A stretch of 51,611 nucleotides of DNA from Clostridia bacterium (GTDB taxonomy: Bacteria > Bacillota_A > Clostridia > Lachnospirales > Cellulosilyticaceae), in assembly GCA_029239935.1 (NCBI GenBank), contig JARBTY010000006.1:1-51611 (forward strand). The letters run 5' to 3'. Positions 17,751 through 30,258 of this stretch are shown here, piece after piece. The position numbers were made by a program, and so were the translations under genes. Numbering within the stretch: position 1 is the stretch's first letter; the number at the start of each line of letters is the position of its first letter. The notes below the pieces were generated by a model. The model had not been told where the DNA came from. It saw only the letters and a program-made list of their open reading frames with translations, and searched no databases.

Positions 17751-18878
17751 TTGAATAGTAATAAATTAAAATATCTTCTTAAAAATGATGAAGGATTTAA
17801 ATTAGACTTTAAACTGAAACTATCTTTAGAATTAGAATCGGATAAAAAAGAATTTGTGAAAGATGTGATAGCTCTGGCTAATACCCCAGGTGGAAGGGGA
17901 TATATAGTATTTGGTATAGAAGATAAAACAAGAAAAATTGTTGGCATAGAAGACATTCCCGATCATATAGAGGAGAAAATTCAACAGACTATCGTCAATA
18001 GAAGTGTTCCACCGGTACCGGTCATGTTTGAACTTCAAAAGGTAAAGGATAAGACAATAGGGATCCTTACCATATTCAAGAGTATGCAGATTCCCCACCA
18101 AATGTTACAAACTGGCGCATTTTATGTAAGGAGAGGTTCGACAACAGATAAGGCAACAAGATACGAAATAGCAAATATGTTACAGCAGTTTGGCATGCTT
18201 AGTTTTGAGAATGTTCCCTGTAGAAATGCAACGCTTGAAGAATTAGATTTTGAGCTCATTGAAAAACAGATAGGCCATTTAGAAATTTATAAACAGCAAG
18301 ACAAGTTGATTTTAGCTGCCTTCGGCATTATTGCAACAGATTTAGAGAAAGGAAGCTATTATCCTACCTATGGAGGCCTTTTATTATTTGGTAAAAATCC
18401 GCAAAACTTTATTCCACAAGCGAGACTTGAAATTAAATACAGCGGCGAGTATATACTTATTAATGGCAATATCTCGCAGATGTTGAAAGAATTTGAGAGA
18501 GTCGCTAGCGAACTTCTCCCAGAAACCTATCCCATTGAAGGTTTGTTAGAGGTTGTTACAAACGCTGTTGCACATAGGGATTATTGGAATAACACCCAAT
18601 ATATTTATGTCAATATTAAGGAAGAGGTTATTCAGGTATCCAATCCAGCAACGTATGATTATAGAGAAATGAGAGAAGAAAGGATACGAGCCAATCCGTG
18701 GCTTTATTCCCAGTTATTTATTACTCATGAGCAAAAAGGAGGAGATTTCCACTTTGGAATAGGTCTTGAAAAAACCAAAAAACTATTTAAAGATAAAGGT
18801 TCAGTGCAGATAGAAACGAATTTGTTTGAGGGGGTTTTTCAAGTCTCTTTGCCAGGCACTGCATTCTATCAAAAGTAA
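17751..18878 (+). CDS. AlbA_2 (Schlafen-like) domain protein with C-terminal GHKL-type ATPase region
   Basis: A 375-aa protein starting at TTG 17751, 7 nt after AAAGGAG. The N-terminal 120 residues match the AlbA_2 putative DNA-binding fold (EFVKDVIALANTPGG, YIVFGIEDK, YVRRGSTT). The C-terminal half resembles the HATPase_c_4 domain of RecG-like transcriptional regulators, with VVTNAVAHRDYW as its ATP-binding N-box. Proteins of this architecture are proposed transcription regulators or helicase-related factors; roles are poorly defined. It precedes the first DRTGG gene by 21 nt, so it is probably first in the operon running to the PHP gene. There is no helicase motif. Confidence 0.75.
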   Translation: MNSNKLKYLLKNDEGFKLDFKLKLSLELESDKKEFVKDVIALANTPGGRGYIVFGIEDKTRKIVGIEDIPDHIEEKIQQTIVNRSVPPVPVMFELQKVKDKTIGILTIFKSMQIPHQMLQTGAFYVRRGSTTDKATRYEIANMLQQFGMLSFENVPCRNATLEELDFELIEKQIGHLEIYKQQDKLILAAFGIIATDLEKGSYYPTYGGLLLFGKNPQNFIPQARLEIKYSGEYILINGNISQMLKEFERVASELLPETYPIEGLLEVVTNAVAHRDYWNNTQYIYVNIKEEVIQVSNPATYDYREMREERIRANPWLYSQLFITHEQKGGDFHFGIGLEKTKKLFKDKGSVQIETNLFEGVFQVSLPGTAFYQK

Positions 18879-18899
18879 TGATATCAATTAGGAGGCCGT

Positions 18900-19250
18900 A
18901 TGAAAATAGAAGAAATCCGTCATATATTAGAAGCAAATATTTGGGTAGGGGAAGAAAGACTTGAGGGAGAAGTGCATGCAGCCTGTGGCTGTGATCTGAT
19001 GAGCGATGTTCTTGCTTTTGCAAAAGAAGAAGTATTACTACTTACAGGTCTTGTTAACCCGCAAGTGATAAGGACAGCAGAAATGCTAGATATCAAAGCG
19101 ATAGTTTTTGTTAGGGGGAAAGTTCCCACTCAAGATATGATTACAATGGCAAAGCAAAAGAGTATGATTATTCTTTCAACAGATTATCCCCTCTATATAG
19201 CCTGCGGAAAGCTTTATAGAATGGGTCTTATGAATGAAGGAGAAGCGTAG
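18900..19250 (+). CDS. DRTGG domain protein 1
   Basis: A 116-aa single-domain protein resembling the DRTGG domain found in HPr kinase N-termini, some phosphotransacetylases and CBS-domain proteins. The hallmarks are the ACGCDLMSDVLAFAKEE segment and the LLLTGLVNPQVIRTAEML and AIVFVRGKVP strands. There is no catalytic motif, so it is likely a ligand-sensing or protein-interaction module. A GGAGG site precedes the ATG at 18900. The stop lies 1 nt before the HATPase gene. The tight spacing with the ATPase and the [FeFe] hydrogenase suggests a shared complex or signalling role. Confidence 0.7.
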   Translation: MKIEEIRHILEANIWVGEERLEGEVHAACGCDLMSDVLAFAKEEVLLLTGLVNPQVIRTAEMLDIKAIVFVRGKVPTQDMITMAKQKSMIILSTDYPLYIACGKLYRMGLMNEGEA

Positions 19251-19251
19251 G

Positions 19252-19665
19252 ATGAAATTACATTATCAAGTCGATGGAGATAATTTTTTGGTTGCAGGAG
19301 AGGCTTCAGCATCTTTAAAAAGAACATTAAAGCAGCTTGGTATAGATGCAAGCATTATTAGGAAAATTGCTATATCGATGTATGAAGCAGAGATGAATAT
19401 GGTTATTCATGCTTATGGAGGAGTTATTGATGTAGAGCTATCTACTGATAAAGTAGCAATCGTTTTAAAAGATAAAGGCCCAGGTATACCAGATATTGAA
19501 CTAGCTATGAAGGAAGGTTATTCAACGGCTACTCATGAAATTAGAGAACTAGGATTTGGAGCAGGTATGGGACTGCCTAATATGAAAAGATATAGTGATT
19601 ATTTAAATGTGTATTCCGAAGTAGGAGTGGGAACGACTGTAGAGATTACCGTCTATTTAACCTAA
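19252..19665 (+). CDS. Anti-sigma regulatory factor-like Ser/Thr kinase (HATPase_c, RsbW-like)
   Basis: A 137-aa GHKL ATPase with the RsbW/SpoIIAB layout: the N-box in YEAEMNMVIHAYGG, the G1 box DKGPGIPD, and the G2 box GFGAGMGLPNMKRYSD. It is a bare kinase domain with no sensor. I start it at ATG 19252 because AAGGAG lies 9 nt upstream; an ATG at 19234 is inside that region. Family members phosphorylate STAS antagonists or bind sigma factors, but no STAS protein or sigma factor is adjacent. Its neighbours are DRTGG and hydrogenase-like genes, so the target may be a metabolic or redox regulator. Confidence 0.85.
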   Translation: MKLHYQVDGDNFLVAGEASASLKRTLKQLGIDASIIRKIAISMYEAEMNMVIHAYGGVIDVELSTDKVAIVLKDKGPGIPDIELAMKEGYSTATHEIRELGFGAGMGLPNMKRYSDYLNVYSEVGVGTTVEITVYLT

Positions 19666-19697
19666 TATTATGGAATAAGAGAGAAGGTGTTTAAGCC

Positions 19698-21017
19698 ATG
19701 CATAGTCATTCTGTAAGGCTAGAACAAGAAAAATGTATTGGATGTACAGATTGTATCAAACGATGTCCAACAGAAGCTATAAGAGTACGAGGATCTAAAG
19801 CAAAAATTATTCAAGAGAGATGTATTGACTGTGGCAATTGCATTCGCATATGCAGAAATGGTGCTAAGAAGGCTGTTACAGATGAGATAAATATGATTTA
19901 TCAGTATAAATACCGTATTGCACTGCCAGCTCCTTCGTTTTATGCACAATTTCCCAAGGCAAAAAGCATTGAGCATATTTTAGGGGCTTTATATCGTATT
20001 GGATTTACAGATTTTCTTGAAGTAGGGTGTGCAGGGGAAGTTGTTGCAAAACATACTTATGAATATGTTAAAAACGCTAAAGTTTTTCCGGTTATTTCTT
20101 CATCTTGTCCAGCTATTGTAAGGCTTATCCAAAGGCGATTTCCCTCACTCATTCAACATGTGCTCCCCATTATGTCGCCTATGGAATTAGCGGCTAGATA
20201 TATCAAGAGTGAGTACATTCAAAAAGGGATAAAGGAAGAGGAGATAGGTGTCTTTTTTATCTCCCCTTGTCCGGCAAAAGCAACAGATATCCACAGACCC
20301 AAAGGATTAAAAAAGTCCTATGTAGATGGGGTCTTATCAATGCAGGACATTTATAAAAGCATGATTCATAAGATGAGTCATGAAGAAATTGTACCTGTTA
20401 AAAGGCAAAGTAGTTATAAAGGGCTGTCATGGGCAACAAGAAATGGTGGCCTGGATGAAAATATGATTAAAAGTCATATTGCTGTTGATGGGATGGAAAG
20501 CGTTATAGGCATACTAGAGAAGATAGAAGACGGGACATTATCCAATATTAAGTATATAGAGGCGTTGGCTTGTACCGGGGGATGTTTAGGAGGAGCGTTA
20601 GCACTGGAAAATCCTTTTGTCAGCCGTTATACTTTGAAAAAATGGATTGAGGAAGATATTGCTAAAGAAGATTTTGATAATACAGAGATGCTCCAAGCTC
20701 TGTCTGAAATACCTTATGGTTTTGAAAAAAATATTACTCCACGACCTGTTTTTTCACTGGACGATGATATGGAAAAAGCCCTTCAAATGATGGAAAGTAT
20801 TGAAGTTTTATACGAGGCACTTCCAAAGATAGATTGTGGTTCTTGCGGGGCACCCACATGCAGGTGTTTTGCAGAAGATGTTATTAGACATGATGCCAAT
20901 ATTGAAGAGTGCGTTTTTATGCTTAGGAAAAAGATAAAAGATTTGTCAGAAGTGATGCACAACCTTACACAGACAGTGATTCCTACGGATCATAACAAAG
21001 AAAGAGGAGATGAGTAA
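19698..21017 (+). CDS. Non-canonical (putative sensory) [FeFe] hydrogenase
   Basis: A 439-aa protein: two 4Fe-4S ferredoxin motifs (C13-C23 and C43-C53 region), an H-cluster domain, and a C-terminal CGSCGAPTC...C 4Fe-4S motif near 380-406. The four H-cluster cysteine ligands remain: C137 (SSSCPA), C191 (SPCPAK), and C292 and C296 (CTGGC). The cysteine that relays protons in active enzymes (first C of TSCC) is Ser136, and the usual Met of MPC is Ser. This pattern, with the ATPase and DRTGG neighbours, fits hydrogenases proposed to be sensory (group D-like). Catalytic rate and group are inferred. It overlaps or nearly abuts the next gene. Confidence 0.85.
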   Translation: MHSHSVRLEQEKCIGCTDCIKRCPTEAIRVRGSKAKIIQERCIDCGNCIRICRNGAKKAVTDEINMIYQYKYRIALPAPSFYAQFPKAKSIEHILGALYRIGFTDFLEVGCAGEVVAKHTYEYVKNAKVFPVISSSCPAIVRLIQRRFPSLIQHVLPIMSPMELAARYIKSEYIQKGIKEEEIGVFFISPCPAKATDIHRPKGLKKSYVDGVLSMQDIYKSMIHKMSHEEIVPVKRQSSYKGLSWATRNGGLDENMIKSHIAVDGMESVIGILEKIEDGTLSNIKYIEALACTGGCLGGALALENPFVSRYTLKKWIEEDIAKEDFDNTEMLQALSEIPYGFEKNITPRPVFSLDDDMEKALQMMESIEVLYEALPKIDCGSCGAPTCRCFAEDVIRHDANIEECVFMLRKKIKDLSEVMHNLTQTVIPTDHNKERGDE

Positions 21018-21018
21018 G

Positions 21019-21354
21019 TTGACAATAAAAGAACTTATAAAGTTAGCAGAGTTTGAAATTGTAGCAGGGGAAAAGGGACTAGACAATGAAGTAAAAGGGG
21101 GATATGTAGGAGATTTATTAAGTTTTGTAATGTCTCATGCAGAAGAAAAAAATATATGGGTTACCATACAGGGACATATCAATTCTGTGGCAGTGGCAAG
21201 TCTTTTAGGTTTGTCTGGGATTATTCTTTCAGAGGGAGCTGAAGCAGATCCAGAGATGATTAAAAAAGCAGATGAGGAAAGCATACCTGTTTTAAGAACC
21301 AAGCTGAGCAGCTTTGATGTGGTCTGTAAAGTATCAGAGGTTATTGAGACGTAG
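21019..21354 (+). CDS. DRTGG domain protein 2
   Basis: A 111-aa protein from the TTG at 21019, 9 nt after AGAGGAG; the in-frame ATG at 21010 would leave no spacing to that site and overlaps the hydrogenase stop. The signature VKGGYVGDLLSFVMSHA, then NIWVTIQGHINSVAVASL and GIILSEGAEAD, is typical of the small DRTGG proteins beside anaerobic hydrogenase genes. No active-site motif is visible. It is clearly related in size and layout to DRTGG protein 1, 1.7 kb upstream, yet diverged in sequence. The PHP gene begins 9 nt later. Confidence 0.75.
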   Translation: MTIKELIKLAEFEIVAGEKGLDNEVKGGYVGDLLSFVMSHAEEKNIWVTIQGHINSVAVASLLGLSGIILSEGAEADPEMIKKADEESIPVLRTKLSSFDVVCKVSEVIET

Positions 21355-21363
21355 GAGGTTTTC

Positions 21364-22071
21364 ATGAAATTTGCATATGATTTTCATATACATACAGCCG
21401 CCTCGCCCTGCGCTGATGAGTATATGTCTCCCCATAATATTATCAATATGTCTCAGTTGAATGGGCTTCAAGTAATAGCTATAACAGATCATAATATATG
21501 TGCAAACTGTGAAGTGATTATGGAAATAGGCCGGCAAAATAATATTTTAGTTATTCCAGGTATGGAAATAGAGTGTATGGAGGAATTCCACTGTATTGCA
21601 CTTTTTAAAGATATGGAATCAGCCCGGTATATAGAAAACTATGTAACAGCAGCACTGCCTGCCCTTAAAAACAGAACAGAGATTTTTGGCAACCAATATC
21701 GGATGAATGAAAAAGATGAAGTGATAGGAGAAATAGACAGACTCCTGCTTACTGCTACGGCCAGATCAGCAGAAGAATTATTTAAAGAAGTGAGAGGGGC
21801 CGGGGGTATTATTTATCCAGCTCATATTGACAGAAATTCTTATAGTATTATAACGACTTTAGGATGTATTCCAGAAGAGCTCAACCTGCATACAATAGAA
21901 ATATCAAAAGGAGCATCCTTACAGACCTATGAACAAATGTATAAAGGGTTTACTATTATTCAGTCATCAGATGCCCACTATTTGCAAGATATTTCACAAA
22001 GCGCGTACTTCATGGAGGCAAAAAGTCTAACCATTTCAGATATTTTTAAATCTATAGAGCAAATAGACTGA
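21364..22071 (+). CDS. PHP domain phosphoesterase-like protein
   Basis: A 235-aa metal-dependent hydrolase fold of the PHP superfamily. Visible metal ligands: DFHIHTAASPC near residue 6 (HxH), AITDHN near 41 (DH), GMEIECMEEFHC near 63, PAHID near 158, and SSDAHYLQ near 203. Such proteins include phosphatases for histidinol phosphate or nucleotides; no substrate can be assigned. An AGGAGG site precedes the ATG at 21364. It is the last gene of the AlbA_2-DRTGG-hydrogenase operon, followed by a terminator-like hairpin. Its association with DRTGG and hydrogenase genes suggests a linked signalling or repair role. Confidence 0.8.
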   Translation: MKFAYDFHIHTAASPCADEYMSPHNIINMSQLNGLQVIAITDHNICANCEVIMEIGRQNNILVIPGMEIECMEEFHCIALFKDMESARYIENYVTAALPALKNRTEIFGNQYRMNEKDEVIGEIDRLLLTATARSAEELFKEVRGAGGIIYPAHIDRNSYSIITTLGCIPEELNLHTIEISKGASLQTYEQMYKGFTIIQSSDAHYLQDISQSAYFMEAKSLTISDIFKSIEQID

Positions 22072-22089
22072 TTCAATACGCAAGAGATT

Positions 22090-22132
22090 AGACTCTATTT
22101 CTGGATACAAGAAATAGGGCATAGTCTCTTTT
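22090..22132 (+). terminator. Probable terminator after the PHP gene
   Basis: AGACTCTATTTCT pairs with AGAAATAG and AGTCT, with a 5-nt bulge (GGCAT), followed by CTTTT. The stem is imperfect and the T-run short, but the position, 18 nt after the stop and before a new promoter, supports termination. Confidence 0.55.
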
Positions 22133-22200
22133 AAAATTTAAAAATTAAAAAATAAATAAATTAAGATAGAGTTCATCTTTAATACAAAGTATTTTATTAA

Positions 22201-22229
22201 TTGACAACATAATTTTTTTGTGGTATTTT
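22201..22229 (+). promoter_or_regulatory. Upstream hydCDBA promoter candidate
   Basis: A perfect TTGACA (22201-22206), 17 nt, then TATTTT (22224-22229). Transcripts starting here would run through the Rex operator 30 nt downstream. Confidence 0.5.
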
Positions 22230-22259
22230 CATAAAGTAAGCAATTAAATTGTAAGTTTT

Positions 22260-22277
22260 TTGTTAAATTTTTAACAA
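22260..22277 (+). promoter_or_regulatory. Rex (NADH/NAD+-sensing repressor) operator
   Basis: TTGTTAA-ATTT-TTAACAA is a perfect inverted repeat matching the Rex consensus known from Clostridia (TTGTTAA, four bases, TTAACAA); the palindrome extends to TTTTGTTAAA on the left arm. Rex leaves DNA when NADH is high, which fits derepression of an NADH-oxidising, hydrogen-producing enzyme. It overlaps the -35 of the proximal promoter. Confidence 0.85.
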
Positions 22278-22299
22278 AAGAATACAAAAGGGTTAATAT
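22271..22299 (+). promoter_or_regulatory. Rex-overlapped hydCDBA promoter
   Basis: TTAACA (22271-22276), 17 nt, TAATAT (22294-22299). The -35 is formed by the right arm of the Rex operator, so Rex binding would exclude RNA polymerase. The predicted start near 22306 leaves a short leader with GAGGAGG before the ATG. Confidence 0.6.
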
Positions 22300-22326
22300 A
22301 AAAGGAATAAATGAGGAGGATACGTT

Positions 22327-22821
22327 ATGTCATGTGAAGGTTGCAAAAATGAACTGGCCAATGAATTGTATTTAGAACTTGAAAAGTTCATTGATGAACT
22401 ACCAGAAAAAAGAGGAGCTCTTATTTCTGTGCTTCATAGAGCACAAAGTTTATTTGGATATTTACCAAGAGAAGTCCAGGTATTTGTAGGCAAAAAGCTT
22501 AATGTTCCAGTGTCGCAAGTATATGGAGTAGTTAGTTTTTACTCATTTTTCACCATGCTTCCAAAAGGGAAACATCCGATTTCAGTCTGTTTAGGAACAG
22601 CTTGTTATGTAAGAGGAGCTGACAAAGTACTGGATGCATTTAAAAGACAGTTGGGGATAGAGGTTGGACAGACAACACCAGATGGTAAATTTTCTTTGGA
22701 TGCTTTAAGATGTGTTGGGGCCTGTGGTTTAGCACCGGTTGTATTAGTGGGAGAGAGAGTATACGGACGTATTGGAACAGCGGATGAAGTTAAGAAAATT
22801 ATTAGTGAATATCAAGAATAA
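22327..22821 (+). CDS. hydC: Bifurcating [FeFe] hydrogenase subunit HydC (NuoE-like)
   Basis: A 164-aa thioredoxin-fold [2Fe-2S] protein of the NuoE family. The four cluster cysteines are CLGTAC (C-x4-C, near residue 89) and CVGAC (C-x3-C, near 138). The helical N-terminus (KRGALISVLHRAQSLFGYLP and PVSQVYGVVSFYSFF) is typical. In trimeric NAD/ferredoxin-dependent hydrogenases it passes electrons beside the HydB flavin. The ATG at 22327 has GAGGAGG. It is the first gene of a four-gene unit behind the Rex operator, 21 nt before the small ferredoxin-like gene. Confidence 0.93.
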   Translation: MSCEGCKNELANELYLELEKFIDELPEKRGALISVLHRAQSLFGYLPREVQVFVGKKLNVPVSQVYGVVSFYSFFTMLPKGKHPISVCLGTACYVRGADKVLDAFKRQLGIEVGQTTPDGKFSLDALRCVGACGLAPVVLVGERVYGRIGTADEVKKIISEYQE

Positions 22822-22842
22822 TCATTATAGGAGGGTCTTTAT

Positions 22843-23241
22843 ATGCCGAAAATTATGTCATTAGAAGAGCTCAAGAACTTAAGAGACAATGTAAAAAACA
22901 AAGTTGATTTAAGGGAAAAGGGCGAAAATGTAGATGAAATGGTAGTGATTCGTGTAGCTATGGCGACCTGTGGGATTGCATCTGGGGCGAGAGATACGAT
23001 GAATTATTTGGCTGAACTTATAAGAGAAGAGAGTTTAAATAATGTCGTTATTACGCAAAGCGGCTGTATGGGATATTGTTATGCAGAACCAACCGTTGAG
23101 GTAACACTTCCAGGTCAAGAAGCTGTAGTATACGGCCATGTTAATAAAGAAAAAGCTAAAGAAATTGTAGAAAAACATATTAAGAGCGGTGAAATGGTAG
23201 ATGGTATCATTCCAGCTGCTCACAAATCCCTAGATGAGTAA
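22843..23241 (+). CDS. Small (2Fe-2S) thioredoxin-like ferredoxin, HydD-type accessory protein
   Basis: A 132-aa protein with a thioredoxin-like [2Fe-2S] domain; likely ligands are the cysteine in MATCGIASGA and the pair in SGCMGYCYAEP. Similar genes lie between hydC and hydB in several clostridial hydrogenase operons, sometimes called hydD. The core trimer HydABC does not need it in well-studied systems, so it may be an extra electron carrier or assembly aid. An AGGAGGG site precedes the ATG at 22843, 21 nt from hydC and 21 nt from hydB. It differs from the N-terminal domain of HydB. Confidence 0.8.
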   Translation: MPKIMSLEELKNLRDNVKNKVDLREKGENVDEMVVIRVAMATCGIASGARDTMNYLAELIREESLNNVVITQSGCMGYCYAEPTVEVTLPGQEAVVYGHVNKEKAKEIVEKHIKSGEMVDGIIPAAHKSLDE

Positions 23242-23262
23242 TAGAAAAGAGGTGGCCTAGAA

Positions 23263-25050
23263 ATGTCTAAATTTACAATGCACATTTTGGTATGTGGAGG
23301 AACAGGATGTATTTCTTCGCAGTCCAATGAGATCGTAGAACAACTTAAATTTCATATAAATGAAGCAAATATGTCAGAAGAAGTACAAGTACTCAAAACA
23401 GGATGTTTTGGTTTTTGTGAAAAAGGGCCTGTTGTTAAAATACTTCCTGATAATACTTTTTATGTACAAGTTACGCCTGAGGATGCAGAAGAACTTGTAA
23501 AAGAACATATTGTAAAAGGCAGAAAAGTAGAAAGACTGCTGTACTTAGATCCAACAACAGAAGAAAAAGTATCAGATTCCAAACACATGGATTTTTATAA
23601 AAAACAAATGCGTGTGGCACTCCGTAACTGTGGTTTTATAGATCCAGATAATATTGAGGAATATATCGCTAGAGATGGTTATTCCGCACTTGGAAAAGCA
23701 CTTGGCATGACACAACAAGAAGTTATAGATGAGGTTAAAAAATCAGGACTCCGTGGCCGTGGGGGCGGTGGTTTCTCAACAGGACTCAAATGGGAGTTTG
23801 CTTATAAAAATGCTGCAGATCAAAAATATGTTGTCTGTAATGCAGACGAGGGAGATCCGGGCGCATTTATGGATCGTTCTATATTAGAAGGAGACCCTCA
23901 TTCGGTTGTTGAAGCTATGGCTATTTGTGGTTACGCTATTGGGGCTACAAAAGGATTAGTATACATCAGAGCTGAATATCCACTGGCCATCAAAAGACTT
24001 GAAAAAGCCATTGAAGATGCGAGAGAGTACGGTTTATTAGGTAAGAGCATACTTGGAAGTGATTTAGAGTTTGATATTGAAATAAAATTTGGTGCAGGAG
24101 CTTTCGTATGCGGAGAAGAAACAGCACTCATCCACTCAATGGAAGGTATGCGCGGCGAGCCGACTACAAAACCACCTTTCCCAGCAGCTAGTGGTTATTG
24201 GGGAAAACCAACCAATGTTAATAACGTAGAGACTTTTGCAAATGTTCCTGTTATTTTCTTAAAAGGAGCGGATTGGTTTGCATCTATTGGGACTGAAAAA
24301 TCAAAAGGAACAAAAGTATTTGCACTGGCAGGCAAGATTAACAATGTAGGACTTATTGAAGTACCTATGGGTATTACTTTAAGAGAGATTATCTATGATA
24401 TCGGTGGTGGTATTAAAGATGGTAAGAAGTTCAAGTCTGTACAAACAGGAGGCCCATCCGGAGGCTGTTTGACGGAAAAGGATCTTGATACACCTATTGA
24501 CTTTGATAACCTCATTGCGAAGGGATCTATGATGGGTTCCGGCGGTATGATTGTTATGGATGAAGATGACTGTATGCCGGCTATAGCAAAATTCTATTTA
24601 GAGTTTACAGAAGAAGAATCTTGTGGTAAATGTACGCCATGCCGTATTGGTACAAAACGTCTCTTAGAAATATTAGAAAAAATTACGCAAGGAAAAGGAA
24701 CAATGGAAGACTTAGATACTTTAAAAGAACTAAGTCAGGTGATTAAAGATACTGCCCTTTGTGGTTTAGGTCAGACCGCTCCAAATCCTATTCTCTCAAC
24801 CTTACAAATCTTTGAGGATGAGTATATTGCACATATTAAAGACAAAAAATGTCCTGCTGGACAATGCAGTGCATTACTAGAGTATAAAATTACAGACAAA
24901 TGTATTGGTTGTACAGCATGTGCAAGAGTATGTCCAGTAAACGCTATAACAGGAACTGTTAAACAGAAACATCTTATCGATCAGGAAAAATGTATCAAAT
25001 GTGGTGCATGTATGGATAAATGTAAATTTGCAGCTATTGTAAAAGAGTAG
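23263..25050 (+). CDS. hydB: Bifurcating [FeFe] hydrogenase subunit HydB (NuoF-like, NADH/FMN)
   Basis: A 595-aa flavoprotein handling NAD(H). Domains in order: an N-terminal thioredoxin-like [2Fe-2S] domain (CGGTGC and CFGFC, residues 11-60), the NuoF core with GLRGRGGGGFSTG (NADH), NADEGDPGAFMDR and GAGAFVCGEETA (FMN), the 4Fe-4S site SCGKCTPCR with a later CGLG, and two C-terminal ferredoxin motifs (CIGCTACARVC and CIKCGACMDKC). This is the standard HydB layout of electron-bifurcating hydrogenases. It follows AAAGAGGTGG, 21 nt after the small ferredoxin gene, and ends 18 nt before hydA. Confidence 0.96.
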   Translation: MSKFTMHILVCGGTGCISSQSNEIVEQLKFHINEANMSEEVQVLKTGCFGFCEKGPVVKILPDNTFYVQVTPEDAEELVKEHIVKGRKVERLLYLDPTTEEKVSDSKHMDFYKKQMRVALRNCGFIDPDNIEEYIARDGYSALGKALGMTQQEVIDEVKKSGLRGRGGGGFSTGLKWEFAYKNAADQKYVVCNADEGDPGAFMDRSILEGDPHSVVEAMAICGYAIGATKGLVYIRAEYPLAIKRLEKAIEDAREYGLLGKSILGSDLEFDIEIKFGAGAFVCGEETALIHSMEGMRGEPTTKPPFPAASGYWGKPTNVNNVETFANVPVIFLKGADWFASIGTEKSKGTKVFALAGKINNVGLIEVPMGITLREIIYDIGGGIKDGKKFKSVQTGGPSGGCLTEKDLDTPIDFDNLIAKGSMMGSGGMIVMDEDDCMPAIAKFYLEFTEEESCGKCTPCRIGTKRLLEILEKITQGKGTMEDLDTLKELSQVIKDTALCGLGQTAPNPILSTLQIFEDEYIAHIKDKKCPAGQCSALLEYKITDKCIGCTACARVCPVNAITGTVKQKHLIDQEKCIKCGACMDKCKFAAIVKE

Positions 25051-25068
25051 AAAAGGAGTGAGAAAACG

Positions 25069-26823
25069 ATGTCAGATCTTAAAATAACTATTGATGGCAG
25101 AGAGACTTTGGTTAAGCCAGGCGCGACCGTTTTAGAGGCAGCAAGACAAGTAGGCGTACATATACCAACTCTTTGTCACTTAGATTTACATGATACCAAA
25201 ATGGTAAATCAAGCAGCTTCTTGTAGAATTTGTGTTGTGGAAGTGGAAGGCCGCAGAAATTTAGCGCCAGCTTGTGCAACGCCTGTTACAGAGGGGATGA
25301 TTGTAAATACCCGTTCAGTAAAAGTGCTTAATGCAAGAAAGGTGGTTCTTGAGTTGTTATTATCAGACCATCCTAAAGATTGTCTAGTATGTGAAAAATC
25401 AGGACAATGTGAACTTCAAGATCTTGCTATTAAATTTGGGGTTCGTGAACTGAGAATAGGTAAAGATGGGGCTCAGTCAACTTATCCAGTAGATCCAAGT
25501 CAAGCGATTGTAAGAGATATGGATAAATGTATTATGTGCAGACGCTGTGAAACCATGTGTAATAAAGTTCAGACAGTAGGCGCATTATCAGGTATCAACA
25601 GAGGTTTTCAAGCAGTGGTTTCTACAGCTTTTGAAGTAGACCTTGTGGATTCTGTATGTACTCACTGCGGACAATGTGTTGCGGTCTGTCCAACAGGTGC
25701 ATTATGTGAAAAAGAACATGCTTGGGACGTGGTAAGACAGTTAGCAGATAAAGATAAAGTTGTAGTTGTACAAACCGCTCCAGCTGTAAGAACAGCATTA
25801 GGTGAAGAATTTGGTATGGAAGCGGGCACGCTTGTAACAGGTAAAATGGTTGCAGCTCTTAGAAGACTTGGATTTAACTATGTATTTGATACAGATTTTG
25901 CAGCAGACGTAACCATTATGGAAGAAGGGGCAGAACTGATTGATCGTATTACCCGATTTAAAGCAGGAGATAAATCAGTAAGTCTTCCTATTTTGACAAG
26001 CTGTTGCCCTGCATGGGTAAATTTCATTGAAAGTCAGTTTCCAGATTTATTAGATATCCCATCTACTGCAAGATCACCACAGCAGATTTTTGGAGCTATT
26101 GCGAAAAATTATTTTGCTGAAAAATATCAAATTCCAAAAGAAAAAATGGTTGTTGTATCTATTATGCCATGTTTAGCTAAAAAATATGAAGCCTCAAGAC
26201 CGGAATTTAATAATGATGTAGATATTTCAATCTCTACAAGAGAGTTAGCTCACTTAATTAAAAGGGCAAATATTGACTTTATTAATCTGCCAGAAGAGGA
26301 TTTTGATAATCCACTGGGTGAATCCACTGGAGCAGCTGTTATCTTTGGGACAACGGGAGGGGTTATTGAAGCAGCCACTCGTACGGCCTATGAAATTTTA
26401 ACAGGTGATACCCTAGGAAAAGTTGAGTTTGAAGAATTAAGAGGATTTGATGGGGTTAGAAGTGCTACTGTAAAAATTGGAGACATGGATCTTAATATCG
26501 GTATCGCCCATGGACTTGGAAATGCGAGAGAGCTTCTAGAAGAAATCAGAAGCGGTAATCCAAGAAATTTCCATGCTATTGAAATTATGGCTTGTCCTGG
26601 AGGATGTATAGGTGGCGGCGGTCAGCCCTACCATCATGGAGATACTGAGATTCTTAAAAAACGCCAAGCTGCAATTTATACAGAAGATAGAAATAAAACG
26701 ATTCGTAAATCTCATGAAAATCCATTTGTTAAAGAACTTTATGCAAACTACTTGGGCGAACCAATGAGCCATAAAGCCCATGAACTACTGCATACTCATT
26801 ACAAAGAACAAAATAAAGTTTGA
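25069..26823 (+). CDS. hydA: Bifurcating [FeFe] hydrogenase catalytic subunit HydA
   Basis: A 584-aa enzyme for reversible H2 formation. N-terminal [2Fe-2S] ligands (C in PTLCHLD, AASCRICVV, APAC), a His/Cys 4Fe-4S site (HPKDCLVCEKSGQC), two ferredoxin motifs (CIMCRRCETMC, CTHCGQCVAVC), then the H-cluster domain with L1 TSCCPAW (C312, C313), L2 MPCLAKKYE (C368) and L3 MACPGGCIGGGGQ (C509, C513). All catalytic residues, including the proton-relay cysteine, are intact, unlike the two hydrogenase-like neighbours. With HydB and HydC it forms a group A3-type complex coupling NADH and ferredoxin oxidation. A strong terminator follows. Confidence 0.97.
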   Translation: MSDLKITIDGRETLVKPGATVLEAARQVGVHIPTLCHLDLHDTKMVNQAASCRICVVEVEGRRNLAPACATPVTEGMIVNTRSVKVLNARKVVLELLLSDHPKDCLVCEKSGQCELQDLAIKFGVRELRIGKDGAQSTYPVDPSQAIVRDMDKCIMCRRCETMCNKVQTVGALSGINRGFQAVVSTAFEVDLVDSVCTHCGQCVAVCPTGALCEKEHAWDVVRQLADKDKVVVVQTAPAVRTALGEEFGMEAGTLVTGKMVAALRRLGFNYVFDTDFAADVTIMEEGAELIDRITRFKAGDKSVSLPILTSCCPAWVNFIESQFPDLLDIPSTARSPQQIFGAIAKNYFAEKYQIPKEKMVVVSIMPCLAKKYEASRPEFNNDVDISISTRELAHLIKRANIDFINLPEEDFDNPLGESTGAAVIFGTTGGVIEAATRTAYEILTGDTLGKVEFEELRGFDGVRSATVKIGDMDLNIGIAHGLGNARELLEEIRSGNPRNFHAIEIMACPGGCIGGGGQPYHHGDTEILKKRQAAIYTEDRNKTIRKSHENPFVKELYANYLGEPMSHKAHELLHTHYKEQNKV

Positions 26824-26850
26824 TAAATAATTAATAATTTATAATGAAAA

Positions 26851-26897
26851 ACTGATCTGCAACTAGATTTTTACTGAGTTGTAGGTCAGTTTTTTTT
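26851..26897 (+). terminator. Intrinsic terminator of the hydCDBA operon
   Basis: ACTGATCTGCAACT (26851-26864) pairs with AGTTGTAGGTCAGT (26877-26890), 14 bp with two G-U pairs, followed by a run of T. The remaining intergenic DNA to 27092 holds the next promoter and is otherwise AT-rich without visible features. Confidence 0.92.
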
Positions 26898-26962
26898 GCT
26901 GTAAAGAGTCAAAATGATAGGATAATAGGGGAGATAATAAGTAGAAAAACAGCCTTTAAAGA

Positions 26963-26991
26963 TTGACATAAAAATAACAAGAACTTATAAT
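26963..26991 (+). promoter_or_regulatory. Consensus promoter of the PAS-hydrogenase/phosphatase unit
   Basis: A perfect TTGACA (26963-26968), 17 nt, and a perfect TATAAT (26986-26991). The leader to the first ATG would be about 95 nt. No Rex site is visible, so this unit seems constitutive compared with hydCDBA. Confidence 0.8.
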
Positions 26992-27092
26992 GAGGGTAAG
27001 AGATAAAAATGTTTTAAAAATAACATAAGGTAAGGCGTTTTAGAAGCAATAGATAGAGAATGATGGTATTTTATTAAATGGGGAGTGGTGAT

Positions 27093-27338
27093 ATGAAAGT
27101 CATTAGAATATGTATTGGAAGTGCCTGTCATCTTAAAGGGTCTTATCAAGTCATTGAAACCTTTAAAGAGTTAATACAACTCTATAAGTTAGAAAACAAA
27201 CTTGAATTAAATGCAGCTTTTTGTATAGGTAGATGTACGGAAGCTGTTTCTGTAGCAAGATGGGATGAGGCGGTTTTATCCGTTTCAAAAGAAAATGCAA
27301 AAGAAATCTTTATAAATGAAATTATGGCTTATCTTTAG
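27093..27338 (+). CDS. Thioredoxin-like [2Fe-2S] protein
   Basis: An 81-aa protein, essentially a bare NuoE-type C-terminal domain: CIGSAC (C-x4-C) near residue 7 and CIGRC (C-x3-C) near 47 supply four cluster ligands. I chose ATG 27093, 7 nt after GGGAG; an in-frame ATG at 27078 precedes that site. It is 15 nt from the PAS-hydrogenase gene, so it is probably its electron partner. It lacks the helical N-terminus of HydC. Confidence 0.85.
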   Translation: MKVIRICIGSACHLKGSYQVIETFKELIQLYKLENKLELNAAFCIGRCTEAVSVARWDEAVLSVSKENAKEIFINEIMAYL

Positions 27339-27353
27339 GGAGTGACTTAAATA

Positions 27354-29078
27354 ATGTGGATTATTAATTTTTCAGAGGCAGATTGCAAAAATTGTTATGC
27401 GTGTGTACGGGCGTGCCCTGTTCATGCTATTGAAGTTAAAGCTGAACAGGCTCAAATCATGAAGGATAGATGTATTGGATGCGGAAAATGTCTAAAGGTC
27501 TGTCCGAAAAATGCCAAGCAAGTTAAAACGGAACTGGAAACGGTTAAAAAATACGTTAAATGCAAACAAACAGTCATAGCGTCTATTGCGCCGTCATTTG
27601 CAGCGCTATTTGCAGAAAATAGTCATAAAGTTGCGTCAGCACTGAAAATGTTAGGCTTTACCTATGCTGAAGAAACGGTATTAGGAGCTGATGCTGTTAC
27701 GAGTGCCTATGAGAGCTATGTAAAAACCCATGATCAATCCTGTATGATTACAAGCTGCTGTCCATCAGTTAATTATCTGATACAAAAGCATCATCCAGAG
27801 ATTATCCAAAATCTTATCCCTATTATATCGCCAGCAGTCTGTCATGGAAGAATGCTGAAAGAAAAATATGGTAAAGAGGTAAAAGTTGTTTTTATCGGAC
27901 CATGTTTATCTAAAAAGATTGAGGGCAATGAGGAAGAAGCGATAGATGCAGTGCTCACCTTTGAGGAATTAGAAAAGTGGATGCATGAAGAAAATATAGT
28001 TTTGGAGGCACTGCCGGAAGTTACTTTTGATACATGGCAGACAGAACAAAGACTTTATCCTATAGTAGGCGGTGTAACCAGAACAATAAACAAAGATACT
28101 TTGGACAAAGAGATTATTAAAGTAGATGGCATAGAAGAATGTATTGAGGTCATAGAGGCTATTAAAGAAGGAAGATTTGAAAATGTTTTATTTGAGATGA
28201 GCTGCTGCAGGCAAAGCTGTATTGCAGGTCCGGGAATGCCAAGTGACGTCCCTAATATTTATGAACGGAAAAGGAGAGTTAAAAAATATGTCGCGGCTTG
28301 CCGTGAAAAGCAGAGAGAGACCGAACCAATCAAAGGGTATGGTCAGGAAGAACTATCAAAAATAGATTTGCAGCAGTATTTTTCCAACCTCTATATACCA
28401 CTTAAAGAACCTAGTGAAGAGGAAGTTAAGAGTATACTCAGCAGTATTGGTAAATATACAAAATTGGATGAGTTAAACTGCGGAAGCTGTGGTTATCATA
28501 CTTGTAGAGAAAAAGCAGCAGCGGTATTTAATGGGATGGCTGAGGCCAATATGTGTCTGCCTTTTATGAGACAAAAAGCGGAGACCTTAACCAATGTCAT
28601 TTTTGATGCCTCACCCAATCTGATTCTTATTATTAATAGGCATTTTGAGATTTTAGAACTCAATCCAGCTGCTCAAAAATTCTTTAAAATGACGAAAGAG
28701 ACCACATCGGAGCTTCCAATTGCCATGTTTATCGATCAGGAAGTATTTGAAGAAGTCAAACGTACTAAAAAAAGTGTTTTAGGACAGAAAGTGATGATTA
28801 AAGCCAATGATGCAGTGGTTATTCAGAGTGTCATATGGATTGAATACCATCAAGTGATGTTATGGATAGCTCATGATATTACTAAGGATGAGAAACTTGA
28901 AAAGAAGCTACAGACGATGAAAATAGATGCCATTAATATGGCGCAGCAAGTTATCAATAAACAGATGACCGTGGCTCAGGAAATAGCTAGTCTTCTGGGG
29001 GAGACAACGGCTGAGACAAAAGTAACTTTAACTCAGTTAAAACAACTCATTCAAGAAGAAGAGGGCATAAAAAAATGA
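27354..29078 (+). CDS. Putative sensory [FeFe] hydrogenase with PAS domain (HydS-like)
   Basis: A 574-aa protein: two 4Fe-4S ferredoxin motifs (CKNCYACVRAC, CIGCGKCLKVC), an H-cluster domain, a CGSCGYHTC 4Fe-4S motif near 390, a PAS domain near 418-520 (NVIFDASPNLILIIN) and a helical tail. L1 is TSCCPS (C135, C136), L2 is GPCLSKKIE (C184) and L3 is CCRQSC (C285, C289 as C-x3-C), so the H-cluster ligands persist but the canonical MPC and CPGGC contexts are lost. This matches proteins proposed as hydrogen or redox sensors (group C-like). It overlaps the phosphatase gene by 4 nt, making that the likely output. Confidence 0.88.
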   Translation: MWIINFSEADCKNCYACVRACPVHAIEVKAEQAQIMKDRCIGCGKCLKVCPKNAKQVKTELETVKKYVKCKQTVIASIAPSFAALFAENSHKVASALKMLGFTYAEETVLGADAVTSAYESYVKTHDQSCMITSCCPSVNYLIQKHHPEIIQNLIPIISPAVCHGRMLKEKYGKEVKVVFIGPCLSKKIEGNEEEAIDAVLTFEELEKWMHEENIVLEALPEVTFDTWQTEQRLYPIVGGVTRTINKDTLDKEIIKVDGIEECIEVIEAIKEGRFENVLFEMSCCRQSCIAGPGMPSDVPNIYERKRRVKKYVAACREKQRETEPIKGYGQEELSKIDLQQYFSNLYIPLKEPSEEEVKSILSSIGKYTKLDELNCGSCGYHTCREKAAAVFNGMAEANMCLPFMRQKAETLTNVIFDASPNLILIINRHFEILELNPAAQKFFKMTKETTSELPIAMFIDQEVFEEVKRTKKSVLGQKVMIKANDAVVIQSVIWIEYHQVMLWIAHDITKDEKLEKKLQTMKIDAINMAQQVINKQMTVAQEIASLLGETTAETKVTLTQLKQLIQEEEGIKK

Positions 29079-30235
29079 AATTTTTTGTGGATTTCGCAAC
29101 GGGAAGCTTAAATAAATATGGTGAAGAATTATGCGGCGATAAAGTGGAATTTTTCAATGGGAAAGATAGCTTTATAGCAGTGCTTTCAGATGGTCTTGGA
29201 AGCGGTGTCAAGGCCAATATACTTGCCACTTTAACAGCAAAAATTGCCATTACAATGCTTAAAGAGGGACTCAATATTGAGGAAGTGGTGGATACCATTA
29301 TCCATACACTGCCAATGTGCTCTGTAAGAAAACTAGCTTACTCTACTTTTACGATTATAAAAGTGGATTCTAAAGGCATGGTTTATGTTGTTGAATTTGA
29401 TAATCCCAGTGTATTTTTTATAAGAGACGGTAAAATAAAAAATTTGGAAACAACAACGACAGAAATTAATGGCAGAAGTATAAAAGAAAGTAAATTTGAA
29501 CTGAGTGAAAAAGATACACTGGTATTTGTAAGTGACGGGGTGATCCATGCTGGAGCAGGTATGATACTCAATCTGGGGTGGAGCTGGAAAGAAGTAGCTA
29601 ATTATCTGCAAAATACAGTAAAGAAATCAATGCCCGCTAAGATGGTTACCAATCTTCTTCTGGGAGTATGTGAGGATCTGTACATAGAAAAACCAGGGGA
29701 TGATACAACGGTTGCAGTTATCAAAGCCATTCAGCCAAAGCAGGCCACCTTGTTTGCAGGTCCGCCGCTAGAGTATACAAGTGATAAAGAAGTGGTTAAT
29801 ATTTTAATGAATACACCAGGCAAAAAAATAGTGTGTGGAGGTACTGCCGCTAATATAGTCTCTAAAGAGATTGGTGTAGCCATTAAGACTAATTTTACGA
29901 TTATAGATAAGGATATACCACCTATTGGCTATATGAGAGGTATTGATTTAGTAACAGAAGGTGTACTCACTATAAAGGGAGCTGTTGAGCGCTTAGAACG
30001 GGTAAAGACTGCAAAAAAAATAGATTTTCTTTACGATGAAGACGGCGCTTCTAAGCTAGCTAGGATGTTATTTGAGGATTGTACCCATATTAAAATGTTA
30101 GTGGGGCGCGCCATTAATCCAGCTCATCAAAACCCGGATTTCCCCAATGAATTAAGTATCAAGCTCAATGTTTTAAAAAATCTGGAGACAGTTTTGAAAA
30201 GCTTAGGCAAACTCATTGAAGTTGAATATTATTAG
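29075..30235 (+). CDS. SpoIIE/PP2C-family Ser/Thr protein phosphatase with extra C-terminal domain
   Basis: A 386-aa protein. The N-terminal 220 residues form a PP2C/SpoIIE domain with metal-binding motifs DFATGSLNKYG, LSDGLGSGVKAN, FVSDGVIHAG and PGDDTTVAVI. The C-terminal 165 residues (from AGPPLEYTSDKE, with IVCGGTAANIVSKE and PPIGYMRGIDLVTEG) match no domain I can name. SpoIIE-type enzymes dephosphorylate STAS proteins. Here it overlaps the PAS-hydrogenase gene in ATGA, so its activity is probably gated by that protein. The RsbW-like ATPase 9.4 kb upstream is a candidate opposing kinase, by inference. Confidence 0.88.
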   Translation: MKFFVDFATGSLNKYGEELCGDKVEFFNGKDSFIAVLSDGLGSGVKANILATLTAKIAITMLKEGLNIEEVVDTIIHTLPMCSVRKLAYSTFTIIKVDSKGMVYVVEFDNPSVFFIRDGKIKNLETTTTEINGRSIKESKFELSEKDTLVFVSDGVIHAGAGMILNLGWSWKEVANYLQNTVKKSMPAKMVTNLLLGVCEDLYIEKPGDDTTVAVIKAIQPKQATLFAGPPLEYTSDKEVVNILMNTPGKKIVCGGTAANIVSKEIGVAIKTNFTIIDKDIPPIGYMRGIDLVTEGVLTIKGAVERLERVKTAKKIDFLYDEDGASKLARMLFEDCTHIKMLVGRAINPAHQNPDFPNELSIKLNVLKNLETVLKSLGKLIEVEYY

Positions 30236-30258
30236 AGAGGTCATAGACCTCTTTTTTT
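30236..30258 (+). terminator. Intrinsic terminator after the PP2C gene
   Basis: AGAGGTC and GACCTCT pair around ATA, followed by seven T. It begins right after the stop codon at 30235. Confidence 0.9.

Follow-up and report, generated by a model that had tools for sequence, protein, structure and literature searches.

According to passages of published work, group D hydrogenases lie upstream of bifurcating hydrogenases with an ATPase or a histidine kinase nearby (PMC8163306, PMC3608648), and a sensory hydrogenase with a kinase is found beside rnf (PMC6163223). For Ruminococcus albus a route from H2 via HydS to Ser/Thr phosphorylation has been proposed (Zheng 2014, cited in PMC5707799; also PMC10838669), and deletion of hfsB, which codes for a PAS-hydrogenase in Thermoanaerobacterium, changes the ethanol yield (PMC5707799). 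Here we analyse a locus of a Clostridia bacterium that combines such parts, i.e. positions 17751-30235 of a stretch of 51,611 nucleotides (the window), where all genes lie on the + strand in the order AlbA_2, DR1, ATP1, HydS1, DR2, PHP, hydC, hydD, hydB, hydA, TRX, HydS2, PP2C. An earlier note on this DNA had described hydCDBA as flanked by a group of ATPase, DRTGG and hydrogenase-like proteins on one side and by a PAS-hydrogenase with a SpoIIE/PP2C phosphatase on the other, and this anatomy is confirmed. To our mind there is an even chance that the block consists of two separate [FeFe]-hydrogenase sensor modules, DR1-ATP1-HydS1-DR2-PHP (module 1) and TRX-HydS2-PP2C (module 2), around hydCDBA with its Rex-type operator, and not of one conserved switch. 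The parts are of known kind and well conserved, and they are stacked in an arrangement that is specific to the family of the window. Statements on whole genomes concern relatives of the window organism, and the named sources with the closest HydS1 proteins are Cellulosilyticum and its relatives.

Module 1 resembles TamHydS and its locus as passages of PMC8163306 describe them. Both hydrogenases have two N-terminal [4Fe-4S] motifs, a four-Cys H-domain and a C-terminal Cx2Cx4Cx16C motif, both lack a PAS domain and the proton-relay Cys, and both loci have an ATPase gene beside the sensor and a group A hydrogenase, a bifurcating hydABC, downstream. In contrast to that locus, the ATPase here is SpoIIAB-like and has no histidine-kinase dimerisation domain, a pair of DRTGG proteins and a PHP protein are near-constant across the sampled Clostridia, and the window family has no second HATPase in the hyd operon. 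With SpoIIAB and RsbW ATP1 shares the architecture of a small GHKL ATPase with catalytic-type Glu and Asn residues, but neither a linked STAS antagonist nor a linked sigma factor.

Module 2 follows the order of hfsABCD from Thermoanaerobacterium, i.e. first gene, hydrogenase (the PAS-hydrogenase HfsB) and Ser phosphatase (HfsC), in the passages on that operon (PMC5707799, PMC11837493); this likeness is one of gene order and description, and TRX corresponds to HfsA by position alone. A further hydrogenase follows in 15 of 33 relatives, as HfsD does, whereas the window has no HfsD-like gene after PP2C and its module lies behind hydCDBA. A likeness also exists to HydS of R. albus, where, in the parts of PMC5707799 and PMC10838669 concerned, H2 is read by the hydrogenase domain and passed via PAS to Ser/Thr phosphorylation; there, however, one sensor lies beside hydA2, whereas two sensor types surround hydCDBA here. 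Finally, a passage on Halanaerobium hydrogeniformans (PMC4237134) lists an anti-sigma-type Ser/Thr kinase, an Fe-S protein, an iron-sulfur binding hydrogenase, PHP, NuoE, a histidine kinase, a ferredoxin-like protein, an NADH dehydrogenase and a hydrogenase in one putative hyd operon, but it leaves these parts uninterpreted and contains no PP2C module. This was the only paper that further cassette terms yielded, a literature search on hydrogenases and DRTGG gave one unrelated paper, and in these searches of an open-access library we saw no paper that discusses the DRTGG pair.

Distribution of the two modules

The class-wide search covered 147 Clostridia genomes, for which a completeness of at least 90% was requested (the figures are blank in the outputs), and HydS1-type proteins, counted above 380 bits, are present in 81 of them. 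Both modules occur in 33 genomes, HydS1 alone in 48, PP2C alone in 16 and neither in 50. Where both are present they lie within 20 kb of each other in two genomes (G001 and G086), on the same contig at a distance of at least 200 kb in seven, and on different contigs in 24, for which adjacency is not strictly excluded. Likewise, PP2C is near HydS1 in 3 of 83 HydS1 loci (the window, L001 and L081); these 83 comprise 80 loci fetched from the class-wide search, L001, L002 and the window, and some cassette genes missed among them are due to contig ends. A single conserved three-unit switch as a general architecture is rejected by these co-occurrence and distance counts, and the rare co-occurrence of the three units, which the earlier note had named as a refutation of its reading, is largely borne out outside the window family.

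Inside this family the order is kept as a family-level arrangement. HydS1 is present in 13 and PP2C in 9 of the 24 family genomes sampled, all nine PP2C genomes also carry HydS1, and six of the nine contain the three-unit block (G001, G149, G152, G164, G165 and G170). In G153 and G154 TRX and part of HydS2 are followed by the contig end, and four family genomes (G002, G166, G167 and G168) have no module 2 at this place, two of which (G167 and G168) carry a more distant copy elsewhere. G151 (locus L139) has kept module 1, but only a TRX remnant, no HydS2 and a PP2C gene in four fragments are left of module 2, i.e. the two modules are separable.

In the window the block falls into three transcription-unit-like parts, each of which ends in a hairpin, with inter-unit gaps from 22071 to 22327 (PHP to hydC) and from 26823 to 27078 (hydA to TRX). 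The hairpins at 22082-22130 and 26846-26895 are absent from the pattern-scan list; they were chosen by eye and then scored by folding. Pattern scans of the whole region are at chance level for promoter-like sites (51 vs 45.9 expected) and terminator-like sites (7 vs 6.7), as is the number of Rex-like sites with up to three mismatches in the window (14 vs 10.98), so that we place weight only on named sites, folding scores and enrichment in relatives.

Module 1 and its candidate kinase partners

Module 1 is a tight cassette. Upstream of HydS1, ATP1 and a DRTGG gene are each found in 79 of the 83 loci, downstream a DRTGG gene in 79 and PHP in 76, and the median gaps between the five genes are 0, 17, 2 and -4 bases. 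The commonest locus order is the cassette followed by hydC-ATP2-hydD-hydB-hydA; among the other orders is one with the cassette between hydC and ATP2. ATP2 is a second HATPase of about 185 amino acids with its own C-terminal domain (e.g. L009 8661-9212) and invariant D10 and N14 (54/54), which lies downstream of HydS1 in 57/83 loci. In the window family it is not part of the hyd operon, but is clearly present elsewhere in the genome in 11 of 13 family genomes, the exceptions being G001 (a partial match at a contig end) and G164 (a weak match). The fetched loci contain no fusion of ATP1 with DRTGG, HydS1 or PP2C; proteins matching several profiles are HydB-sized proteins that share Fe-S and thioredoxin-like regions, and one remnant of 55 amino acids in L139.

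HydS1 has two N-terminal 4Fe-4S motifs, and its H-cluster cysteines 137, 191, 292 and 296 are conserved in 82/82 sequences; together with the cysteines between residues 13 and 52 and those of the C-terminal motif C380-x2-C-x4-C-x16-C405 (380, 383, 388 and 405) they form sets kept in 81-82 of 82. Residue 136, the proton-relay position (C299 of CpI), is Ser in the window and Ala in 60, Ser in 10 and Asp in 5 of 82 sequences, and a Pfam scan reveals no PAS domain. By these motifs, including the replaced proton-relay Cys, HydS1 is predicted to be of the group D / M2e type. A HydG match is missing in 18 of the 81 HydS1 genomes; each of these 18 encodes one or more [FeFe] hydrogenase domains (HydS1 itself being counted), and HydF is above its cut-off in two of the 18; a loss of H-cluster maturases was considered and dropped, as we read the gap as draft incompleteness.

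ATP1 (143 amino acids) consists of the HATPase domain alone in Pfam, and the same scan finds no histidine-kinase dimerisation/phosphoacceptor domain. Residues E51, E53, N55 and H59 are invariant (79/79), and in an alignment with SpoIIAB structures E51 and N55 fall on the N-box Glu/Asn pair. ATP1 remains below the equivalog cut-offs of SpoIIAB (62.3 vs 135 bits) and RsbW (31.6 vs 145 and 24.9 vs 155), whereas the true SpoIIAB of the relative G001 scores 198.4 on the SpoIIAB equivalog. The DRTGG assignment of DR1 and DR2 is based on a sequence or fold match; DR1 adopts a DRTGG/HPrK-N/MurE fold in the fold search, a STAS entry is missing among the fold matches listed, which has no value for excluding one, and a sequence search of the PDB gives no strong relative of either protein. 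S35 of DR1 (79/79) as well as Asp35, Ser38, Thr52 and Asn58 of DR2 (78/78) are conserved. In the PHP protein D6, H8, H10, D42, H43, E68, H76, H154, D203 and H205, which we take from the fold to be metal ligands, are each kept in 74/74.

No STAS antagonist, sigma factor or histidine-kinase partner is found among the scanned proteins of the block in Pfam and NCBIfam, in agreement with the earlier note, which had seen no STAS, sigma or histidine-kinase gene adjacent. HydS1 genomes without any STAS domain are G067, G102 and G117 (3/81), PP2C genomes without one are G107 and G117, all drafts that may be incomplete, and exactly one STAS gene is present in 25 of the 81 HydS1 genomes by our table count. 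The relatives G001 and G002 each have a single STAS gene, spoIIAA, which lies in the spoIIA operon beside SpoIIAB-like and SigF-like genes, and in G001 all three products exceed the NCBIfam cut-offs for SpoIIAA, SpoIIAB and SigF. A dedicated STAS partner of ATP1 is therefore unlikely there, although ATP1 might use SpoIIAA in these two genomes.

The earlier note had also named HydABC itself and the AlbA_2 protein as possible targets, and neither is supported as a general one. A true hydB gene is found downstream of the cassette in only 50/83 loci and hydA in 44/83. In the 33 cassettes with neither gene, 10 have less than 6 kb of sequence on this side, and in three (L047, L060 and L067) hyd genes flank the cassette on the opposite side. 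Others adjoin different genes, e.g. rnf directly downstream in L058, where six rnf products exceed NCBIfam cut-offs, and, by gene order only, in L050 and L079; genes for a PyrK-like protein and a dihydroorotate dehydrogenase in L043, and a PyrK-like gene in L030 that scores just below the cut-off; and a molybdenum aldehyde oxidoreductase set in L073. HydABC as obligate target of module 1 is rejected on these counts. The AlbA_2 gene precedes the cassette in 12 of 13 HydS1 loci of the family (in one it is broken into two pieces) and in 0/80 loci outside it; among the 83 loci it is found in 3 (the window, L001 and L002), and it is thus rejected as general partner or target; a GHKL domain suspected in its C-terminal half gave no significant match with the ATP1 and ATP2 profiles and none in Pfam or NCBIfam. 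We regard DR1 and DR2, both of which carry an invariant serine, as the best candidate partners of the predicted kinase, and a DRTGG protein as a possible phosphorylated target.

Module 2 and the Rex-type operator

PP2C directly follows HydS2 in 47 of 49 genomes, with an overlap of 4 bases in the window, and TRX immediately precedes HydS2 in 31 of 33 HydS2 loci. The H-cluster cysteines 136, 184, 285 and 289 of HydS2 are each kept in 36/38 sequences, and its putative C-terminal PAS domain scores below the cut-offs (PAS_9 23.5 bits vs 27, E = 7e-5; PAS 21.1 vs 22.6, E = 3e-4). PP2C has the SpoIIE/PP2C fold and its metal-binding Asp residues, and the catalytic residues of both the kinase-type ATP1 and the phosphatase-type PP2C are intact. 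The C-terminal domain of PP2C (residues 222-386, window 29738-30232) contains a conserved C254-G-G motif, H351 and other conserved residues and matches no Pfam family; the fold search barely covered this domain.

Several variants of this module were observed. In seven loci (L095, L102, L108, L113, L115, L117 and L119) a HydS2-type hydrogenase is fused to a sigma-54 activator, resulting in proteins of 873-911 amino acids, five of which are encoded directly upstream of hydC; PAS and helix-turn-helix domains are seen in L095. In L148 (5496-6948, G108) TRX adjoins PP2C without HydS2 in between, and hydB-hydA lie nearby on the other strand. In L092 (8889-10502) and L101 (3285-4745) PP2C is followed by a gene for a protein of 486-537 amino acids whose matches to Cas12f1-like TNB are weak (28.8 and 20.5 bits against a cut-off of 26.3); this gene may belong to a mobile element.

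HydA scores as a member of the NADH-dependent, bifurcating group A [FeFe] hydrogenase family (NF040763), and electron bifurcation by the window enzyme is thus a prediction from family membership. Rex is known to control hydrogenase genes. We scored upstream regions against what we take to be the Rex operator consensus, and among 78 hydC genes 9 have a site with no, 12 with one and 15 with two mismatches, i.e. 36/78 with two or fewer, whereas first-order resampling leads to cumulative expectations of 0.00, 0.10 and 1.15, respectively. Such a site also precedes TRX in 10/49 cases with at most one mismatch (0.10 expected) and the DRTGG cassette in 4/90 with at most two (0.55 expected), and AlbA_2 in 0/12. 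A Rex-type DNA-binding domain (Put_DNA-bind_N) is present in 12 of 14 relatives, and the open-access literature searched gave no paper on Rex together with hydABC. These data suggest that hydCDBA is likely set by Rex through the predicted operator. If hydrogenase transcription responds to NADH/NAD+ in this way, the sensor modules may act elsewhere or post-transcriptionally.

Features of the block in window coordinates
Feature	Position	Strand	Support and remarks
AlbA_2 (Schlafen-type) domain protein	17751..18878	+	Pfam PF04326, 78.3 bits; family-specific neighbour outside the general cassette
DR1, DRTGG-fold protein, invariant Ser35	18900..19250	+	
ATP1, SpoIIAB-like GHKL ATPase, presumed Ser kinase	19234..19665	+	TIGR01925, 62.3 bits, below cut-off
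HydS1, putative sensory [FeFe] hydrogenase of the group D / M2e type, no PAS	19698..21017	+	Fe_hyd_lg_C, 130.7 bits
DR2, second DRTGG protein	21010..21354	+	PF07085, 29.7 bits, above cut-off
PHP-domain phosphoesterase	21364..22071	+	PF02811, 35.8 bits
Terminator-like hairpin ending unit 1	22082..22130	+	-22.6 kcal/mol, z -6.3, 0/200 shuffles as stable, then UUUU
Promoter-like site 5' of hydC	22201..22229	+	TTGACA-17-TATTTT, 10/12; consensus match alone
Rex-type operator TTGTTAA-N4-TTAACAA	22260..22277	+	0 mismatches; 49 bases 5' of hydC start
HydC	22327..22821	+	PF01257, 167.8 bits
HydD-like small Fe-S protein	22843..23241	+	Place in hydCDBA; profile built on the window and its relatives; in Pfam DUF1636 alone, below cut-off
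HydB	23263..25050	+	Open reading frame and hyd operon position, kept in relatives
HydA, catalytic subunit	25069..26823	+	NF040763, 883.5 bits vs cut-off 765
Terminator hairpin ending unit 2	26846..26895	+	-23.8 kcal/mol, z -6.2, then U run
Consensus promoter 5' of unit 3	26963..26991	+	TTGACA-17-TATAAT, 12/12
TRX, thioredoxin-like [2Fe-2S] protein, HfsA-like position, 86 amino acids	27078..27338	+	PF01257, 32.8 bits vs 24.8
HydS2, putative sensory [FeFe] hydrogenase with a predicted PAS domain, group C3 / HfsB type	27354..29078	+	Fe_hyd_lg_C, 184 bits
PP2C/SpoIIE-type phosphatase, HfsC type, conserved C-terminal domain 222-386	29075..30235	+	
Terminator ending unit 3	30234..30254	+	9-pair stem and T run, -11 kcal/mol, z -3.6

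Mechanism, alternatives and meaning

In the reading that we find most likely, HydS1, as a poorly catalytic group D type, would read H2 or the redox state of ferredoxin via its H-cluster and Fe-S chain and would gate the SpoIIAB-like Ser kinase ATP1, whose most likely partner would be a DRTGG protein that replaces the missing STAS antagonist. HydS2 would also read H2 or redox state and would control how active the neighbouring PP2C is through its predicted PAS domain and C-terminal helix, in the manner of hfsABC, while transcription of hydCDBA would be set mainly by Rex.

Several observations weigh against this picture of two independent modules with a DRTGG partner. HydS1 and PP2C co-occur slightly more often than expected (Fisher p 0.037; 0.09 among HydG-positive genomes), and in G086 PP2C (L141 17505-18671) is not located behind HydS2 but heads the kinase cassette, in the order PP2C-DR1-ATP1-HydS1-DR2-PHP-hydC-hydD-hydB-hydA-ATP2, with TRX-HydS2 further on. 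STAS domains are present in 139/147 genomes, where an unlinked STAS partner is possible, the invariant serines might line a ligand pocket, T49 of DR1 (78/79) and T52 of DR2 being equally conserved, and the genomes without a HydG match leave room for a HydS1 without full H-cluster. G086 in particular keeps alive a joint switch in which ATP1 under the control of HydS1 and PP2C under that of HydS2 share one target protein, whose phosphorylation the two sensors would drive in opposite directions, as do the nine family PP2C genomes, all with HydS1 and six of them with the modules adjacent. However, 16 of 49 PP2C genomes have no HydS1 and 48 of 81 HydS1 genomes no PP2C, the two rarely lie close to each other, G151 has lost module 2 alone, and hairpins split both modules from hydCDBA, which makes a joint switch unlikely overall; it is plausible that some lineages link the modules functionally. 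Of the single H2/redox phosphorylation switch proposed in the earlier note the intact kinase- and phosphatase-type residues and the absence of a linked partner thus stand, but the parts form two separable modules instead of one conserved switch. It is similarly doubtful that module 1 represents a new class of partner switch, where a SpoIIAB-like kinase under the control of a group D hydrogenase sensor uses DRTGG proteins (S35/S38) instead of STAS antagonists, and that the hfs-type PP2C has been drawn in as opposing phosphatase in the window family, so that two hydrogenases would feed one H2/redox rheostat.

ATP1 might not be a protein kinase at all, but a bare GHKL ATPase whose role is to sequester or remodel a partner and which, together with DRTGG and PHP, forms a nucleotide- or metal-dependent assembly, e.g. 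for the upkeep of Fe-S clusters or the H-cluster or for a small phosphorylated messenger. The complete set of metal-type ligands in PHP, a cassette free of any protein-phosphatase gene, the missed SpoIIAB and RsbW equivalog cut-offs and the DRTGG domain in the regulatory region of a pyrophosphatase (3l2b) would fit such a role, whereas the invariant N-box pair of SpoIIAB argues against it and the cassettes beside rnf and other genes favour regulation over hydrogenase assembly; we consider this role improbable. Less probable still is that HydS1 and HydS2 are not sensors but serve HydABC as catalytic subunits of low rate or as alternative points of electron entry. The cluster ligands are indeed kept, and HydS2 of the window retains the proton-relay Cys (C135, present in 25/38 sequences), but HydS1 cassettes adjoin rnf and other genes without a neighbouring hydABC, seven loci encode a relative of HydS2 fused to a sigma-54 activator, and passages on TamHydS and TmHydS report low activity (PMC6984386, PMC10055695) and those on hfs a rise of the adhE transcript upon deletion of hfsA or hfsB (PMC5707799).

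Taken together, we favour two sensor modules, each of a known kind, around a hydrogenase operon that is probably under Rex control, and what makes them interesting is a signalling question that can now be put to the test, rather than a proven new switch. In the passages concerned, Land 2020 (PMC8163306) does not settle how group D hydrogenases transmit their signal, and the near-invariant cassette described here points to a few candidate partners and to two candidate serines. Moreover, the effect of the hfsB deletion on ethanol yield in PMC5707799 implies that such a circuit bears on the control of fermentation.

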